A stretch of DNA of 64,000 nucleotides, from NCBI GenBank assembly GCA_022824205.1, contig JAJEAI010000130.1, positions 1 to 64,000 on the forward strand, in the 5' to 3' direction. Below the pieces are notes generated by a model. That model was not told the DNA's origin. It worked only from the letters and a program-made list of their open reading frames with translations, and searched no databases. Source of the stretch: Candidatus Binatia bacterium (GTDB lineage Bacteria; Desulfobacterota; Binatia; UBA9968; JAJDTQ01). How positions within the stretch are numbered: position 1 is the stretch's first letter; every line of letters begins with the position of its first letter. Position numbers and translations under genes: made by a program. Shown here piece after piece: positions 4,816 through 18,528 of this stretch.

Positions 4816-4936
4816 GTCGTTACCCTCCCATGGATTCATTCGGCGGCCTTGGTCCTTCCGTCATTCTCGGGCTTCGCCCCCCGAATCGTCATTGATATGA
4901 AATTGGTAGTTACGGAATCCCGCTACACCCCAACGA

Positions 4937-5033
4937 GTCATTCCCGCGGAAGCGGGAATCCATGGGTGGGGGGTCTGGCGGTCTCATTGCCCGGCCCCAC
5001 CCCGCCTGGATTCCCGCTTTCGCGGGAATGACG
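4937..5033. repeat. REP/MITE-like palindromic element, copy A
   Basis: An approximately 97-bp element flanked by inverted arms. The left arm is GTCATTCCCGCGGAAGCGGG followed by AATCCA; the right arm is TGGATTCCCGC and a mirror copy ending AATGAC. Each arm is itself a hairpin (ATTCCCGC loop GCGGGAAT). The centre, with GGTGGGGGGTCTGGCGG and CATTGCCCGG, matches the centre of copies at 50018 and, inverted, 62011. It fills most of the 462-nt gap 4816-5277; the remainder holds the leader of the rhodanese gene and nothing else recognised. Confidence 0.85.
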
Positions 5034-5176
5034 ATTCGGGGGGCGGCGCCCGGTTTGTTCAGGACAACCCGCCTTCGGTACAACCGGCGTTCGCGACAAC
5101 CGGAGCCTGAGCGACCCGAGCCTGGACTCATTCTCACCCAGGAAGCCGTCGAAGTTCAACCCGGTTGCTCTCGCGC

Positions 5177-5208: not shown

Positions 5209-5277
5209 CTGGTCCGGCCATTCGGCTTCTCTCGACAGAGTCGATGTGCCGGAACCGGCAGAACGGGAGGTGGACTC

Positions 5278-6126
5278 ATGGCACAAGCGGGTTATGCACG
5301 CCCGGACCTGTTGACGGAAACAGACTGGCTGGAGCAGCACCTCGACGACCCGGACATCCGCATCGTCGACTGCGACCCCTACGACGTCTACCGCCGGGCC
5401 CACATCAAGGGCGCGGTGGGTATCCGGGTGCACCACTACATCAAGCAGCCGGGCTACGACAAGGAGCCGCGCAAGTATCCGCTGGTGGCGCCACCGGACA
5501 CGGCCAAGGAGGTCATGGAGAGCCTGGGCATCGGCGACGGGACCCACGTCGTGGCCTACGACAGCAACGGCTCCCTGTGGGCGGCGCGCCTGTGGTGGGT
5601 GCTGAACTACTACGGTCACACCAAGGTGACGGTGCTCAACGGCGGCTGGCAGAAGTGGTTCGACGAGGGGCGTCCGGCGACCCTGGACGTGCCCAGGCCG
5701 GTCGCGGCTACCTTCAATCCCAAGGCCGATCCGGACCTGGTCTGCACCGTGGACTACGGCACCGCCAACGTCGGCAACCCGGACGTGGTGTTCCTCGACG
5801 TCCGTTCGGACGGCGAGTGGACCGGGGCCAACAACCGGGGCAACAAGCGCGCCGGACGCATACCCGGGGCCGTGCACCTGGAGTGGCTCAACTTCGTCCA
5901 CGACAAGCCCTACCGGACCTTCAAGGATGGCGGCGAGTTGCGCGGCCTGCTGGAACGGGCGGGGGTTCCACCCGATCGAGAAGTGGTCACGTATTGACAG
6001 GGAGGCATCCGTGCGGCGCACGGAGTCTTCGTCCTGACACTGCTGGGTTACGAACGGGCACGCAACTACGACGGCTCCATGGCCGAGTGGGCCAACCGCG
6101 ACGACACGCCGCTCGTGCTGGAGTGA
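5278..6126 (+). CDS. Tandem-domain rhodanese with in-frame UGA at the catalytic cysteine (probable selenoprotein)
   Basis: A thiosulfate/mercaptopyruvate sulfurtransferase-like protein of 282 residues if UGA 5995-5997 is read through. Domain 1 (about 10-125) is the inactive rhodanese fold (VDCDPYDVYRRAHIKGAV). Domain 2 (about 150-275) has FLDVRSDGEW and GRIPGAVHLEW. The text before the UGA is REVVTY; the text after it is QGGIRAAHGVFVLTLLGYER, then NYDGSMAEWANRDDTPLVLE and TGA at 6124. In homologues the residue at the UGA position is the catalytic Cys of the active-site loop. Codon 240 is therefore either selenocysteine or a nonsense mutation of TGC. A SECIS-like hairpin follows, and the next gene overlaps the distal stop. 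The start ATG has GGGAGG 7 nt upstream. A simple gene call would stop at 5997 with 239 residues, lacking the active site. Confidence 0.85.
5995..6024 (+). promoter_or_regulatory. UGA codon plus candidate bacterial SECIS hairpin
   Basis: UGA is at 5995-5997. After 10 nt comes a perfect hairpin: stem TCCGTGC (6008-6014), loop GGC (6015-6017), stem GCACGGA (6018-6024). A 17-nt minihelix about 11 nt after UGA, with G in the first loop positions, is the known geometry of the bacterial SECIS recognised by SelB. CAGG (5998) and CCTG (6033) can add an outer helix. The hairpin is seen directly; its function is inferred. Confidence 0.7.
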
Positions 6127-6989
6127 GTCTGGGCGCCGAGCTTCTAGCCCTGAGCGCGGCGGTGGCCTGGGGGTCCGAGGCGATCCTTGTGCGCCGGGGC
6201 TCGCGCTACGCCAGCGTCGTGCTCGCCGCGCTCATGGGCTTCGTACTGAGCACGGTGGTGCTGTGGAGCGCCATCTGGCTCTTCTTCCCGCTGAGCCTGC
6301 TCTATACGCGAGGCACCTGGTACTTCGTCATCAGCGGACTGATCCAGCCCGCCATCGTCCGTTTCCTCCACTACACCGGCATCGTCCGCCTGGGCGCGTC
6401 GCGCGCCGGCCCGGTGCGCAGCGTGACGCCGCTGTTCGCCATCGCCATCGCCTTTTCCTTTCTCGGCGAACGGCCGGATGCCGGCGTCTACCTCGGGTCG
6501 TTCCTGAGCGTCGTCGGGGTCTGGCTCACCTCGAGCCGGCGAGAGGGAGAGAGCGAGTGGAAGGCGATCCACCTGGCGTACCCGCTGGGCGCGGCGTTCC
6601 TCACGGCCATCTCCCAGAACTTCCGCAAGACCGGCCTCCTGATCATGCCCAACCCTTACGTGGCCACCGCCGTCACCATCACCACGTCTCTGGTGGTGTT
6701 CTCGTTGAGCCTGGTGGCGACGGGCCAGTTGCACACGCTCCGGGGCGACCGGAAGTGCCTGCCGTTCTACGGCACCGCCGCCGTGGTCTCGGCCACCGCG
6801 CAACTGCTGGGCTACATTGCCCTGGCCAAGGGCGACGTGTCCGTGGTGGTGCCCCTGATCAACACGAACCCCCTCTTCATCGTGCTTTTCAGCGCCCTGT
6901 TCCTTCGGGACCTGGAGACCATCAACGCCCGCGTCGCCACCGGCGCCGTGCTCATCGTCACCGGCATCGCGCTCATCACCTACCGCTGA
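6123..6989 (+). CDS. EamA/DMT-family permease
   Basis: A 288-residue membrane protein of the drug/metabolite transporter superfamily with about ten hydrophobic segments in two EamA repeats. Visible segments include ELLALSAAVAWGSEAILVRRG, FLHYTGIVRLGASRAGPVRS and ALAKGDVSVVVPLINTNPLF. The last two are the repeat-end motifs that precede TM4 and TM9. The start is GTG at 6123, forming a GTGA overlap with the rhodanese distal stop. This implies coupling to translation of the full-length rhodanese rather than to the early UGA. The exported or imported compound is not known; a link to sulfur or selenium metabolites is speculation. Confidence 0.85.
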   Translation: MSLGAELLALSAAVAWGSEAILVRRGSRYASVVLAALMGFVLSTVVLWSAIWLFFPLSLLYTRGTWYFVISGLIQPAIVRFLHYTGIVRLGASRAGPVRSVTPLFAIAIAFSFLGERPDAGVYLGSFLSVVGVWLTSSRREGESEWKAIHLAYPLGAAFLTAISQNFRKTGLLIMPNPYVATAVTITTSLVVFSLSLVATGQLHTLRGDRKCLPFYGTAAVVSATAQLLGYIALAKGDVSVVVPLINTNPLFIVLFSALFLRDLETINARVATGAVLIVTGIALITYR

Positions 6990-12628: not shown

Positions 12629-15600
12629 TCACCACCGCGCGGTGAGCGTGGCGCCGACGCGGTGCTCGGCGCCGTCGTTGGCGGGCTCGAGCCGCGAGCC
12701 CTCGAAGCGCAGCTCGAACGCCTGTGCGCCCTCGCCCTCGAGACGCCAGCCGAAGCCGAGGCCGAGGCGGTGCCCGGCCTCTCCGGCAGCGCTCTCCTGC
12801 CGCGCGCCCTCGACGTCGAGGCCGAACGCAAGGCCCGTCCGCGCCTCCTCCACAAGGCGCCAGCCGAGCACCAGCTCGCGGCTTGAGTCGGTCAGCCCCA
12901 GCCGGAACTCCGGCGTTCCCGTGTAGCGCCCGCCCGCGAGCGCGAACCCGTAGCCGAGCCTCGCCTCCAGCGCGCGCCGTTCCAGCCCGTTCCGGTCATG
13001 GCCTGTCCCGGACCCCGATCCGGCGTCGTTCGCCGCCTCCAGCGCCGTCGCCGTCTGCGGGCGAAGCAGCGCCTCCATCCCGCCCGTGGCCCGCGCGCCC
13101 ACCGTCTGGCTGAGCGAGAACGACGGACCGCGCGCCGACTCGGGCGCCGGGTCCCAGGCGAGCGAGCCCGCGAAGCCCCGCTCGCTGAAGCTCCCGTCCT
13201 CGTGGGTCAGGAGACCCCGCGCGCGCATCTCCGCGCTCAAGCCCCGCGCCGGGTCGCTCCACGCGAGACCCGCCCCGATGTCCGCGCCGAATCCGGTCTC
13301 CGCGTCGCCCCCGTCGCGGCGCACCCCGAGCTCGACGCTCGGCACCAGGCTCGCGCCGTCCCCGAAGCGGAACGCCCGCGAGCCCTCGACTCCCAGGCGG
13401 AGACGCGTCACGTCGACTTCCGACCCCGCCAGGTTGCCCGTATCCCCGCTCACCGCATCCGACGTGCTGCGCACCGCCATCGCGTCCGACGTCACCGCAA
13501 GCTCCGCGCCGCCCTCCGCCGGCGCCTCCAGCAGCACCCCGCGCACCCCCACCGACGCCATCGCCAGGTCCATCCCGGTCTCCAGCGCCGCCTGGCCCTC
13601 GGGCTCCACCGCCAGCGTGCCCGCGCCGTAGCCCGCCACCCCCCACACCGAGACCCGCTCGCTCACCGCGTAGCGCCCCCAGGGGTAGAGGCCGGTCAGG
13701 TCCGCCTCGACGTTTCCCGAGCTCGCGCCCCGGTAGCCGCCGCTGCCCCGCGCATGCGAGAGCACCAGACCCGCCGTCGCGCGCCCGCGCGTGAAGTCGG
13801 CGCCGAGCATCAGGTTCCCCACTTCGCCGTCGAGGCCGAGATCGCCCTCGCGCCCGTCGAAGTGCGAGACCTCGCCCCGGCCCCAGGCCGAGACCGTCCG
13901 CTCGCCCGGGGTCCCGCCGGTCAGCGCGAACGACGTCCCGGCGAGCAGCTCGCGCTCCGACACCGTCCGCGTCCCCGACAGTGCGGCCCGGTCCGCCTCC
14001 CCGTCGGTTCCGCGCAGCCAGGCGGCGAGCGCCCCCGCGCGCGTCTGCTCCTCGCGCGCTTCGAGCGCCTCCGCGTCCTCCGGCATGGCGTCGAAGGAGA
14101 GCGCCTGCCCGGCCAGCGTCGCCTCGAGCCCCGGCGCGCGCGAAGCCCCCATGCGTTCGTCCACCGCCTCCAGCACCTGGTCCGCGACCGTGCGCCCGAA
14201 GCGCGCCATCCAGGCCCGCGGTATCGCATCCGAGTTGTGGATCGTGCCGGTCGCCGTGCCGTCGGCGATCCGCGCCCCCGAGGGGTTCGACAGCACCAGC
14301 TCGAAGGTCTCGCCGTCGTCGTTATGGGCGTCGTTCCGCACCTCGACCTCGACCGTCTGCGTGCGCGGGTTACCGACGTTGAAGGTGAGCGTGCCGCTCT
14401 TCGCCGTGTAATCCGACCCCGCCACCGCCGTGCCGTCCCGCGTCGCGTAGTCCACGGTGACGGTATCGAGCACGGGTTTGTCCAGGCTCACCTTGAACGC
14501 CATCGTCGCGCCCGGTCCCTCGGTCGCCTCCGCGTCCGCCACCGAAATCGCCGGCTGGCCCCGGACGATGACCGACAGGTCGTGCGAGAGCGGGATCCGG
14601 CCTTCGCCGTCTTCCGTCTTCGCGCAGGGCACGCCGCCGCTGCCGCAGGCCCGGTTGCCGCGCAGCAGCACCTTCACGTCGTCGAAGCCGTCCGGCCTCA
14701 CTCTCACCCGCCAGAGGTCGCTGCGCCCGTTCACGCGCCGGGTCCGCTCGACCGCCCCGTCGGTCACGTCGAAGGCCTGCGGGAATTTCGACATGCCGGC
14801 CGTGATCGGGGCGCTGAACGCGATGTATACGTCGAACGGGGACCCGTCATGCTCGATCGGGTTGTCGTGGACGCGCGCCGTCAGCGCGGTCTCGTCCTCG
14901 GGGCCCGGCACGGTGACGGTCAGCGTGTTCGCCAGTTGCCTGGGCGGGATGTCGCCGGTGCAGGGCGCCCCTTCCACGGTGCAGGCCTGTCCCGCGGCGA
15001 GGACCAGCGTCACGTCATCGTCGCCGTCCGGCGAAACCTCGAGCTCCCAGAGGTCGCTCCGCTTGTCGACGCGCTTCACGCTCGTGATTGCGCCGCCCGT
15101 CACGGCAAACCCGTTCTTGAGGACCCTGTAGCTCGTCGCGATGTCCTCGCTGAAGGCGACGCGCACCCGGAAGGGCTCTTCCCCGTCGTGGTCGTCCGGG
15201 GCACGCTTCAGCGAGGCGATGAGCGGCTCGGCGGAATTCGACTCCAGCGAGCGCAGGGTCCCGGAACCGCCGCCGCCACCACCGCCGCCGCGGACCAGGC
15301 GCACCAGCACGCGCTCGCCGTCTTTCCAGGCGATGCCCGTGCCGGTCAACCGATAATCGGCCTGGATGTCATCATAAGTTCCCGCTAGGGGGAACGATCT
15401 TCCGTCGATCCGCAGCGAGAACGCGGAGTCGTCAAAGGTTGCGACGGGGCTGCCTCCACTTTCAACAATGCCGAGTTGGAGAGTTCCCGCCGGAAGCAGC
15501 CGCAACTGGTCCACCGTATGCTCCGTTCCGTCGTAGTCGAACGTCGCGGGCGACAGAGCGCCAAAGGCGTCCTCGACGTAACCGAAATGCTTGTCGACTC

Positions 15601-18493
15601 CTACACCCGTTGCGAACTCCCCCACCGTCATCTTCCCGCACCAGATGTCGTTCGCGCCGCACTGATCGCGGACGACCTGCACGACGTACTCGCGGTCCAC
15701 CCGCACGTCCTCGGCCTTCACGTGGAGCCGGAACTCGTTGCGCCCGGGCTTGACGTCGAACCGCTGCGAGAGGCGGTCGTCATCGCTCTCCCCCGGCCGG
15801 AGGTTGCTCCAGCTCCCGACACCGCGCTGCTGGAGGGGGCGGCTCTGGTCGTAGAAATCGACGACCGACGCCTTGTCGTCGTCCGGGTCGGCGGTGAGCG
15901 TCACGGACTCCACCCGGTTCGGCACGCGCACCTGGTGCGTCTTCAGGGTGGGCGTGAAGGACCGGTTGAAGTTGTGGCCGATGACCTGGAGGCCCCCACC
16001 GAGGATCTCGGTGCCGCTCTTCACTTCGTAGCTGTCGCCGTGCTCGTCCTCGACCTCGATCGAGGCGAGCTTCGCGTTGGTGTTGTAGAGCCGGGGCTTG
16101 CCCCTGACGACGATGCCCATGGCCCCGGGCGAGAAACCCCAGTCCTGGGTCGCGCTGCCGCGCAGCCAGCGGCCGTTGCTCACATACGCGAAACCGCCGG
16201 AGCCGTCGCCGTCGCTCGGGTCCCTCTCGGCCGTGGTCGAGAGCGTGGGCGCGGTGCCGCCCGCCTGCTTGACCACGACGGCATAACTCGTCCACGGCTT
16301 GAGCACCGCGCCGTCGGGCGCCTCGAAGGTCTTGAGGCCGCCCCCCGAGAGGCCGGACGGATTCTCCATCTGGTAGAGGAACGACCCCGGCTTGCGGATG
16401 TAGGTCTTGTGGTTGCCCACCTCGTACTGCCCCCCCTCGTAGGTGGTCGTCCAGATCTCCACGTCCATGTCGGTCGCCGTGTTGCCGCTGGCGAAGCGGA
16501 TGCGGACGCTCTCGAACTCGTATTCGGGGAAATGCCCCGCCGTCCTGAACCCCTGGGCGCGCTGCGCCCCCCTGGTCGTGCCGTTGAAGTCGTCCGGGTC
16601 GTCGGCGTTGTCGACAAGGTCGGTCTCGTCGATCGAGCGGGGGATGGTGCCGGTGGCCGCGCTGGTGCGCGACTCGCTGAATCCCGCGTCGTCCCTGAAG
16701 CTGACCCTGACCTTGAGCTTGTACCCGAGCCGGTCGGCCCCGATTGTGAACTTTCTCCCGGTCGCGTTCGGGATGCCGATTTCCCCGCCGTCGCCGAACA
16801 CCATGATCCACTGGTAGCGGAAACTGGCGTTGTCGAGTCCGTTCTCGTCCTCGATGTCGTCCGCGTTCGCCGTCAGCGTCCGGCCGAGCTTCAGCGTGCC
16901 CGAGATCGTGGGCGTGCCGGTGGCGGAGGCGTTACGAATGGTGCCGTTGATACGTATCCGAAGAACTTGAGAGCGGCTATCCCACGCGTCCGAAATATTC
17001 CCTTTCCTGAGCAATGCATTTCCAATGGTCCATCCTGGAGCCCTACCGCTGTCCTCTGAATGGGAATCCGTGCGTTGCAAGGTCGCTGTGGGTACCCCGT
17101 TCGCGGTGTGGTTGGTGACCACGACGTGATAGGTGGTGTTGCCCGCGAGGCGGCTGTCCGACGGCGCCGAGAATGTCCTGATTCCCGTGCTCGTTATGTT
17201 GTTCGGCGTTCTCAGGGAGATGACCTTGCTGGAATCGCTCAGGTCGGGCTCGTCGCTGCTGTTGCTGGGCGCGATGCGGACGAGAACTTTCCTCCTTTCG
17301 CTCGGTACTCCGGATAAGAACCCCGTGACGACGAGTTGCACGCTCTTCAGGGTGTAGCCCGCCGAACTGCTGCCCGTAGTGAAGGGCTGCGAAACTATGG
17401 CGTTAATTGTCGACCCAGCGGTTCGCCCTATGTTGCTCACGAGCACGCCCGTCCCGCCGGGGGGCCTGTCGCTCGCCGCCACCGTCCCCGTGCCCGGGAA
17501 CGCGTCGCTCACGCGCTCCTCCTCGTACCCGTCGTCGTCGGTGAAGGAAACCTTGACCTTCACCTTCTTGCCCCGGTCGGCGGACTGGAGCTCGTATTCG
17601 GGTTCCTCCGCCCCGGAAATGTCGCTCTCCTCGCTTCCGTCTACCCGGACCCACTGAAAGTTTACTATCTGGGGGCGCCCGTTCGCGTCCATGACCGCGC
17701 TGGCCGAGGCCCTGAGCGTCGAGCCGACCTCCGCCGTGCCCGAAATCGTCGGCTTGCCGCTCGCGGGGCTGTTGGAAACGCGAGCGTTGACGCGAATCTG
17801 GTAGGCGTTGGGGTTCGATAGATCCCACATGCCGGCGAACCCGCCACGCGAGACGTCGTCGATGGTCCATCCGGCGGCGCCGCCGCTGTCTTCACCTGTC
17901 GCTTCCGTGAATGCCCATTCAAACCCGCCGGATGCACCCGAGGCGATGCGTACCACCACGAAATACCTGGTGCTCGCGCTCAGCGCATAGGCGCTGGTTC
18001 CGCTCGGCAGCGTCCACTTGAGCGTGGTGTCGCTCGCGAGCGTCGGATTGGTGAAGACCACCAGGTCGGTCAAGGTCGGAAGGTTGCTGTTCGCGTCCTT
18101 CGCCCGCAAGCTCACGGTCAGGTCGGACGACGAGACAGTGACGTCGCCCACCTTCAGCTCGATGCTGGTGAGGCTGTAGCCGCCAGTCTCCGTCCCGGTC
18201 CGGAATCCCTGGGCCTGAAGTTCTTGTGCTTGCAAATCGTGGACATCTTCGGTGGTTTTGCCGATGTTGCTCACGGCCACGGTCTCCTGCGCCGCGGCGG
18301 GCGGCGCCGCGGCGCAGGCCAGGGCGAGAAGCGCGAGGAATGCGAAGGCGCGGCGCAGGCGCGGCGTGCGCCGCGAGGCGCCGGGCGGAGTTGCCGCCTC
18401 GCGCGGCGGTGGCCTATCCTCGGTGGGACGCCGCCCGGCGAGCGGTCTCCACCGGCGCCGGTCTATCGTTGTACAGTTCGTGGAAGAGCCCAT
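12629..18493 (-). CDS. Giant surface protein with Ig-like and Calx-beta domains and autotransporter-type barrel
   Basis: A protein of about 1954 residues. After a basic N-terminal tail, a signal peptide ends near PPAAAQE (about residue 70). Three related modules beginning SNIG or AQGFRT (about 70, 350 and 630) resemble choice-of-anchor-R domains. Between them lie two ISGT..GSTL Ig-like repeats (about 248 and 528). A cadherin-like sandwich leads to a poly-Gly linker near 1067. Next come two tandem Ig-like repeats, each with paired Cys, and a Calx-beta domain (about 1311-1421, VDYATRDGTAVAGSDY). The last 400 residues are alternating beta segments rich in RARG and LEGE, ending TLTARW, typical of an outer-membrane barrel. 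ATG 18493 has AAGGG 6 nt upstream. The gene probably encodes an exported adhesin or passenger. A decayed integrase lies just upstream. Confidence 0.8.
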   Translation of the reverse strand: MGSSTNCTTIDRRRWRPLAGRRPTEDRPPPREAATPPGASRRTPRLRRAFAFLALLALACAAAPPAAAQETVAVSNIGKTTEDVHDLQAQELQAQGFRTGTETGGYSLTSIELKVGDVTVSSSDLTVSLRAKDANSNLPTLTDLVVFTNPTLASDTTLKWTLPSGTSAYALSASTRYFVVVRIASGASGGFEWAFTEATGEDSGGAAGWTIDDVSRGGFAGMWDLSNPNAYQIRVNARVSNSPASGKPTISGTAEVGSTLRASASAVMDANGRPQIVNFQWVRVDGSEESDISGAEEPEYELQSADRGKKVKVKVSFTDDDGYEEERVSDAFPGTGTVAASDRPPGGTGVLVSNIGRTAGSTINAIVSQPFTTGSSSAGYTLKSVQLVVTGFLSGVPSERRKVLVRIAPSNSSDEPDLSDSSKVISLRTPNNITSTGIRTFSAPSDSRLAGNTTYHVVVTNHTANGVPTATLQRTDSHSEDSGRAPGWTIGNALLRKGNISDAWDSRSQVLRIRINGTIRNASATGTPTISGTLKLGRTLTANADDIEDENGLDNASFRYQWIMVFGDGGEIGIPNATGRKFTIGADRLGYKLKVRVSFRDDAGFSESRTSAATGTIPRSIDETDLVDNADDPDDFNGTTRGAQRAQGFRTAGHFPEYEFESVRIRFASGNTATDMDVEIWTTTYEGGQYEVGNHKTYIRKPGSFLYQMENPSGLSGGGLKTFEAPDGAVLKPWTSYAVVVKQAGGTAPTLSTTAERDPSDGDGSGGFAYVSNGRWLRGSATQDWGFSPGAMGIVVRGKPRLYNTNAKLASIEVEDEHGDSYEVKSGTEILGGGLQVIGHNFNRSFTPTLKTHQVRVPNRVESVTLTADPDDDKASVVDFYDQSRPLQQRGVGSWSNLRPGESDDDRLSQRFDVKPGRNEFRLHVKAEDVRVDREYVVQVVRDQCGANDIWCGKMTVGEFATGVGVDKHFGYVEDAFGALSPATFDYDGTEHTVDQLRLLPAGTLQLGIVESGGSPVATFDDSAFSLRIDGRSFPLAGTYDDIQADYRLTGTGIAWKDGERVLVRLVRGGGGGGGGSGTLRSLESNSAEPLIASLKRAPDDHDGEEPFRVRVAFSEDIATSYRVLKNGFAVTGGAITSVKRVDKRSDLWELEVSPDGDDDVTLVLAAGQACTVEGAPCTGDIPPRQLANTLTVTVPGPEDETALTARVHDNPIEHDGSPFDVYIAFSAPITAGMSKFPQAFDVTDGAVERTRRVNGRSDLWRVRVRPDGFDDVKVLLRGNRACGSGGVPCAKTEDGEGRIPLSHDLSVIVRGQPAISVADAEATEGPGATMAFKVSLDKPVLDTVTVDYATRDGTAVAGSDYTAKSGTLTFNVGNPRTQTVEVEVRNDAHNDDGETFELVLSNPSGARIADGTATGTIHNSDAIPRAWMARFGRTVADQVLEAVDERMGASRAPGLEATLAGQALSFDAMPEDAEALEAREEQTRAGALAAWLRGTDGEADRAALSGTRTVSERELLAGTSFALTGGTPGERTVSAWGRGEVSHFDGREGDLGLDGEVGNLMLGADFTRGRATAGLVLSHARGSGGYRGASSGNVEADLTGLYPWGRYAVSERVSVWGVAGYGAGTLAVEPEGQAALETGMDLAMASVGVRGVLLEAPAEGGAELAVTSDAMAVRSTSDAVSGDTGNLAGSEVDVTRLRLGVEGSRAFRFGDGASLVPSVELGVRRDGGDAETGFGADIGAGLAWSDPARGLSAEMRARGLLTHEDGSFSERGFAGSLAWDPAPESARGPSFSLSQTVGARATGGMEALLRPQTATALEAANDAGSGSGTGHDRNGLERRALEARLGYGFALAGGRYTGTPEFRLGLTDSSRELVLGWRLVEEARTGLAFGLDVEGARQESAAGEAGHRLGLGFGWRLEGEGAQAFELRFEGSRLEPANDGAEHRVGATLTARW

Positions 18494-18528
18494 CGTCAAC
18501 CCTTCGGATTGACGCCTGATAATGGTTG

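Follow-up and report, generated by a model that had tools for sequence, protein, structure and literature searches.

A probable selenocysteine-containing tandem-rhodanese sulfurtransferase of the SseA type (COG2897) in Binatota

Rhodanese-like selenoproteins were recognized first in marine metagenomes. In the Sargasso Sea data, a rhodanese selenoprotein assigned to COG2897 was represented in 2005 by three sequences with a predicted SECIS element (PMC1088965), and the GOS study of 2008 listed a rhodanese selenoprotein (cd01449) with eight sequences (PMC2398784). A rhodanese selenoprotein was later catalogued as the SseA type in a 2022 review (PMC9312934) and as 'form 4', with the motif UxxG, in a 2026 review (PMC13188914). 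Our literature search found no paper on selenoproteins of Binatota or SAR202. Here we analyzed a stretch of 64,000 nucleotides (the window), which belongs to Binatota, and a tandem-domain rhodanese gene in it that is interrupted by an in-frame UGA. It had been proposed from the DNA letters that this UGA encodes selenocysteine (Sec) and that the protein deserved a new description; the second point stands only in part, since Sec forms of COG2897/SseA had already been predicted in the four publications cited above. We consider it highly probable (roughly 0.9) that the gene encodes a Sec-containing tandem-domain thiosulfate sulfurtransferase/SseA protein (COG2897), in which SelB and a hairpin in the mRNA insert Sec at position 240 and the selenolate would transfer sulfur. 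The features of the locus are collected in Table 1.

Table 1. Features of the rhodanese locus in the window and the evidence for each.
Feature	Position	Strand	Evidence
Ribosome-binding-site-like GGGAGGTG upstream of the ATG	5265..5272	+	Sequence; GGAGG-like stretch in most relatives too
Predicted selenoprotein CDS, tandem rhodanese (SseA/TST-like), 282 residues with Sec240	5278..6126	+	Full-length orthologues, 84-95% identical, in seven same-genus species
N-terminal rhodanese domain, without catalytic Cys, Asp95 at the loop position	5320..5661	+	Pfam stretch 15-128
UGA probably read as Sec, catalytic position, loop U-Q-G-G-I-R	5995..5997	+	TGA in 50/50 distinct Sec-form sequences
Predicted bacterial SECIS hairpin UCCGUGC-GGC-GCACGGA, 7 bp, 3-nt loop	6008..6024	+	Core 6010-6022 invariant; fits the constraints of PMC13188914
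EamA-family permease, next gene, GTG start	6123..6989	+	Pfam EamA 2.1e-27

The in-frame UGA and its conservation

The reading frame starts at an ATG behind GGGAGGTG and contains a lone internal stop, the TGA of codon 240. Its translation reads MAQAGYARPD...REVVTY-UGA-QGGIRAAHGVFVLTLLGYERARNYDGSMAEWANRDDTPLVLE and is closed by a terminal TGA at 6124-6126; the product delimited by the internal stop has 239 residues, as originally stated. Two Rhodanese domains were recognized in the protein (Pfam, 2.5e-37). The best match among solved structures was the Thermus rhodanese 1uar (E 3.5e-46), whose catalytic Cys is aligned with the TGA, exactly where the original prediction had placed it. The residues past the TGA, QGGIRAAHGVFVLTLLGYERARNYDGSMAEW, align to the active-site loop of solved sulfurtransferases and stay in the family alignment through to the C-terminus, so that the claim of a family-like frame after the UGA also held.

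To place the codon in an evolutionary context, 117 related genomes were compared. Seven species of the same genus gave a match (84-95% identity), and each of these genes contained exactly one internal stop, always TGA and always at codon 240; a further draft genome of the genus (G008) gave no match. The same was seen at greater distance, as 14 genomes of a second family in the class (f6; 54-60% identity) had one internal stop each, again TGA at the same codon. Because both the frame and the TGA recur in orthologues from other species, a chance downstream frame is excluded. The terminal stop of these orthologues varies among TGA, TAA and TAG; since it drifts freely, the internal TGA is kept by selection, and the sequence downstream of it shows constraint and not decay.

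Genomes chosen as one per species were then scanned with the patterns R[LF]WW[AV]L[NH]Y and [VI]TYCQGGI, the hairpin not being a selection criterion, and 80 loci were obtained. As the second pattern has Cys and stops before the hairpin core, the Sec loci were presumably recovered through the first. Sec forms were found in two families of Binatota and in SAR202/Dehalococcoidia of the Chloroflexota, and Cys forms make up a large sister group that includes Tepidiforma and other Chloroflexota. The same codon is TGA in 50 distinct Sec sequences and TGC, or once TGT, in 32 Cys sequences, and the Cys of the homologues thus aligns with the UGA. A nonsense mutation or a sequencing or assembly error in a Cys-type rhodanese gene might also place a TGA here, because draft genomes can contain such errors and the Cys-form codons TGC and TGT are a single step from TGA. 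However, 50 distinct sequences, taken from separate assemblies in two phyla and in part from single-contig genomes, share this TGA, and both protein and frame are conserved downstream of it. The conservation of the TGA in independent assemblies refutes this explanation, which we regard as scarcely conceivable.

A frozen hairpin and the selenocysteine machinery

According to published rules (PMC13188914), a bacterial SECIS element has a 3-9 nt loop with G in the first two positions, 4-16 stem pairs, a spacing of 16-37 nt and a minimum free energy (MFE) of -7.5 kcal/mol or lower. The hairpin in the window, with seven pairs (UCCGUGC/GCACGGA), the loop GGC starting 17 nt past the UGA and -9.9 kcal/mol, lies within all of these limits. 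A hairpin at spacing 17 was present in 49/49 Sec sequences tested, 45 of which were at or below -7.5 kcal/mol and four weaker than that published value, and none of the 32 Cys forms had a GG-loop hairpin at the same place. Another hairpin that passes the loose rules occurs in 6/32 Cys forms, which shows that the rules by themselves lack specificity. An Rfam scan of the window at gathering scores, which is uninformative for this bacterial SECIS type, matched tRNA-Met only and no SECIS family.

Thirteen bases, CGTGCGGCGCACG, located at the same distance after the TGA, were identical in 50/50 Sec sequences and in 0/32 Cys sequences, and the Sec-form loci with this invariant core span 33-68% GC. 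The residues encoded under the core (R-A-A-H) are nearly the same in the Cys forms, and the Cys genes vary there, with Arg encoded by CGC, CGG, CGT, AGG or CGA and Ala by all four codons. Freezing of synonymous sites was used for testing because the invariant stem core offers nearly no covariation. When calculated from the codon usage of the individual gene, the median probability of the synonymous codons chosen in the core is about 0.011, a per-gene value from which no overall p-value is claimed since the genes are not independent draws. Residue 249 is Gly in 60/66 Sec forms but mostly Ala or Ser in Cys forms; as the stem is completed by bases from the GGA codon of Gly249, a constraint of the RNA on the protein seems to act here. 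This SECIS is strongly frozen, with 13 bases identical in both phyla although GC content varies twofold, and the freezing apparently reaches even to the choice of a residue.

We then examined the genome from which the window derives (4.8 Mb, 97% complete) for the Sec machinery. The original prediction had called for selA, selB, selC and selD, and all four were found: a tRNA-Sec gene (selC) with anticodon TCA scored 73.1 bits against the Rfam cut-off of 47, and selB (385 bits), selA (576 bits) and selD (373 bits) were all above curated cut-offs. The last three are clustered on one contig (C39), away from the rhodanese gene on C194. The selD gene itself (L049, C39) has an in-frame TGA close to the start, with the hairpin GGUGCAGGUCCUGCACC after it, and the genome therefore probably has at least one more selenoprotein gene. 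Since this hairpin is very unlike that of the rhodanese gene, the SelB of this genome would need to accept both. Across the genomes compared, selA or selB was present in 36/37 of those with a Sec form (the window's genome counted), the exception being a SAR202 genome of 1.4 Mb (G127) that is probably incomplete. Both genes were absent from 6/27 Cys-form genomes, including the complete genome of Tepidiforma flava (machinery presence in Sec-form versus Cys-form genomes, Fisher p 0.036). Many Cys-form genomes retain the machinery, so replacement of Sec by Cys needs no loss of machinery.

The frame would also stay open under any reassignment of TGA, and the codon could accordingly be read as another amino acid through a genome-wide code change, or be passed by general read-through. 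However, TGA is a normal gene end in the window, closing both the rhodanese gene and the EamA gene (6987-6989), so that no general change of the code has to be assumed. The dedicated Sec machinery of the genome and the occurrence of the TGA exactly at the catalytic Cys, followed by a frozen hairpin, also argue against such recoding, which we judge very improbable. The original reading of the UGA as Sec, by comparison, is in agreement with the machinery, the conserved TGA, the Cys homologues and the SECIS-like hairpin alike, and the predicted insertion of Sec at position 240 is strongly supported by these sequence comparisons. SelB with Sec-tRNA(Sec) would bind the hairpin just past the UGA and insert Sec at position 240, which corresponds to the catalytic Cys in relatives. 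When selenium is absent, the ribosome would be expected to end at the UGA and release a 239-residue protein without the active-site loop. Ordinary annotation likewise cuts these genes ahead of the active-site loop.

Evolutionary history and gene neighbourhood

Three changes between Sec and Cys are required by a maximum-likelihood tree that was calculated for 90 proteins by quick search, with Sec coded as X. In this tree, the genus of the window nests among Sec forms of the Chloroflexota, apart from the other Binatota family. A single Binatota clade (p-AU 0.003) and a single Sec clade (p-AU 0.009) were both rejected, although these values are only guides because the tree has some long branches and the groups were defined once it was known. 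Because an identical hairpin is found in all Sec forms, we infer as the likeliest history that the Sec form arose once, together with its hairpin, and was transferred between Chloroflexota and Binatota, with Sec later giving way to Cys. The host is presumably sponge-associated, as the isolate names of several of the nearest records point to sponges. A public record (L052) of a protein 100% identical to this one is titled 'Gemmatimonadetes bacterium'; its close relatives are titled Candidatus Binatia, and the title is probably wrong.

The original prediction described the rhodanese as coupled to an EamA permease. EamA is indeed the next gene in 8/8 members of the genus examined, but the coupling is local and the link is a genus-level feature. 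The rhodanese stop overlaps the EamA start as GTGA in the window and as TGATG in another genus member (L057), and the overlap is not genus-wide. In the second Binatota family, an enoyl-CoA hydratase gene lies upstream of the rhodanese gene and a gene for an unassigned protein is a further neighbour, and in SAR202 arylsulfotransferase-like and ThuA genes lie downstream. The neighbour comparison found no partner gene common to all lineages; since the neighbours differ among lineages, they name no pathway. At one Chloroflexota Sec locus (L070, 6908-8041) and 16 others, the next gene is arylsulfotransferase-like (PF05935) and might be a sulfur-related partner there.

Two further features of the window were noted. 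Upstream of the rhodanese gene lie nested inverted repeats spanning 4868-5052, one with 58-nt arms (4921-4978/4991-5048, 76% complementary) and one with 26-nt arms (4868-4893/5027-5052, 92%); their cores, ATTCCCGC...GCGGGAAT, resemble dispersed palindromic repeats. On the minus strand, an open frame of 1956 residues occupies 12629-18499, and one Calx-beta domain is its sole Pfam match.

Fold, proposed chemistry and relation to known sulfurtransferases

The protein has the features of a tandem rhodanese: two domains, a catalytic residue in the second only and a full-length fold match. Residue 95, in the loop of the N-terminal domain, is Asp or Glu in all aligned members, and the Sec or Cys is located in the C-terminal domain. 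A model predicted with Cys replacing Sec reached a mean pLDDT of 88.8 and a pTM of 0.91 and superimposed on 1uar with a VIA-align Z of 34.8 and an rmsd of 1.7 over 268 residues; other thiosulfate sulfurtransferases ranked next. The protein scored 112.9 bits against the 250-bit cut-off of the MST equivalog NF008557, which is a mild argument against mercaptopyruvate as the main donor. Mercaptopyruvate enzymes have the loop CG(S/T)GVT, from which the loop UQGGIR of the window protein differs.

From what is known of the family, the selenolate in the loop UQGGIR, together with conserved Arg residues, would accept a sulfane sulfur, for example from thiosulfate, bind it in the form Se-S(-) and pass it to an acceptor, which may be a thiol, cyanide or a protein. 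Catalysis by sulfur transfer through a Se-persulfide is thus proposed by analogy. Alternatively, Sec may be inserted as we suggest but serve in a redox enzyme (peroxidase- or reductase-like, with Cys32 as the resolving residue) or in a selenium carrier. Oxidoreductases make up the majority of Sec proteins whose function is known (PMC2398784), and Cys32, a second Cys (5371-5373, in VDCD), is present in 65/66 Sec forms. However, 31/38 Cys forms of the subfamily keep it too, so Cys32 is not tied to Sec, and its role as a Sec-specific resolving thiol was set aside. In both its active-site loop and its entire fold the protein corresponds to thiosulfate sulfurtransferases, and the gene is not beside the sel cluster, which also speaks against a redox or carrier function; we consider such a function unlikely. 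In addition to the preferred assignment as a Sec-containing sulfurtransferase, one could suppose that the Sec form differs in function from Cys rhodaneses, for instance by handling selenium or sulfane sulfur in ways inefficient for them, and that it moved between Chloroflexota and Binatota with its SECIS unchanged, but this seems quite unlikely. The matched Sec and Cys forms among closely related proteins provide a natural experiment on why selenium is used at the persulfide site of a sulfurtransferase.

Among characterized sulfurtransferases, the Thermus thermophilus enzyme 1uar and mycobacterial SseA/CysA are most similar to the window protein, with tandem domains, a full-length fold and an active-site loop that ends in Arg and is followed by (S/A)(S/A)H; they differ in having catalytic Cys in place of Sec and are about 36% identical. 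The E. coli 3-mercaptopyruvate sulfurtransferase SseA (1urh) has the tandem rhodanese architecture in common but is farther than 1uar (E 1.9e-27 versus 3.5e-46). Sec also occurs in the rhodanese domains of NF041203 (CxU) and TsoB NF045694 (UxxxxU) (PMC13188914), which have other architectures and other Sec motifs; in the window protein, the motif is U-Q-G-G and NF041203 scored 39 bits where 115 are required. The COG2897 'form 4' shares the COG and domain type, the UxxG motif (here UQGG), a bacterial SECIS after the UGA and widespread Cys homologues; in motif, COG and SECIS type the window gene agrees with the published descriptions of this form, whose deposited references are MCY3690685.1 and MQG53192.1. 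The window gene is not a member of a new family. A selenoprotein family known, in the literature surveyed, from marine metagenome catalogues and reviews is now placed in Binatota and in SAR202/Dehalococcoidia, and to the catalogues of 'form 4' the gene adds a named host lineage (Binatota) with its full genome context, and a lineage-wide comparison that shows one frozen SECIS and suggests transfer from phylum to phylum and replacement by Cys. Its added value lies in the finer resolution of the distribution and in a SECIS that is conserved to an unusual degree.
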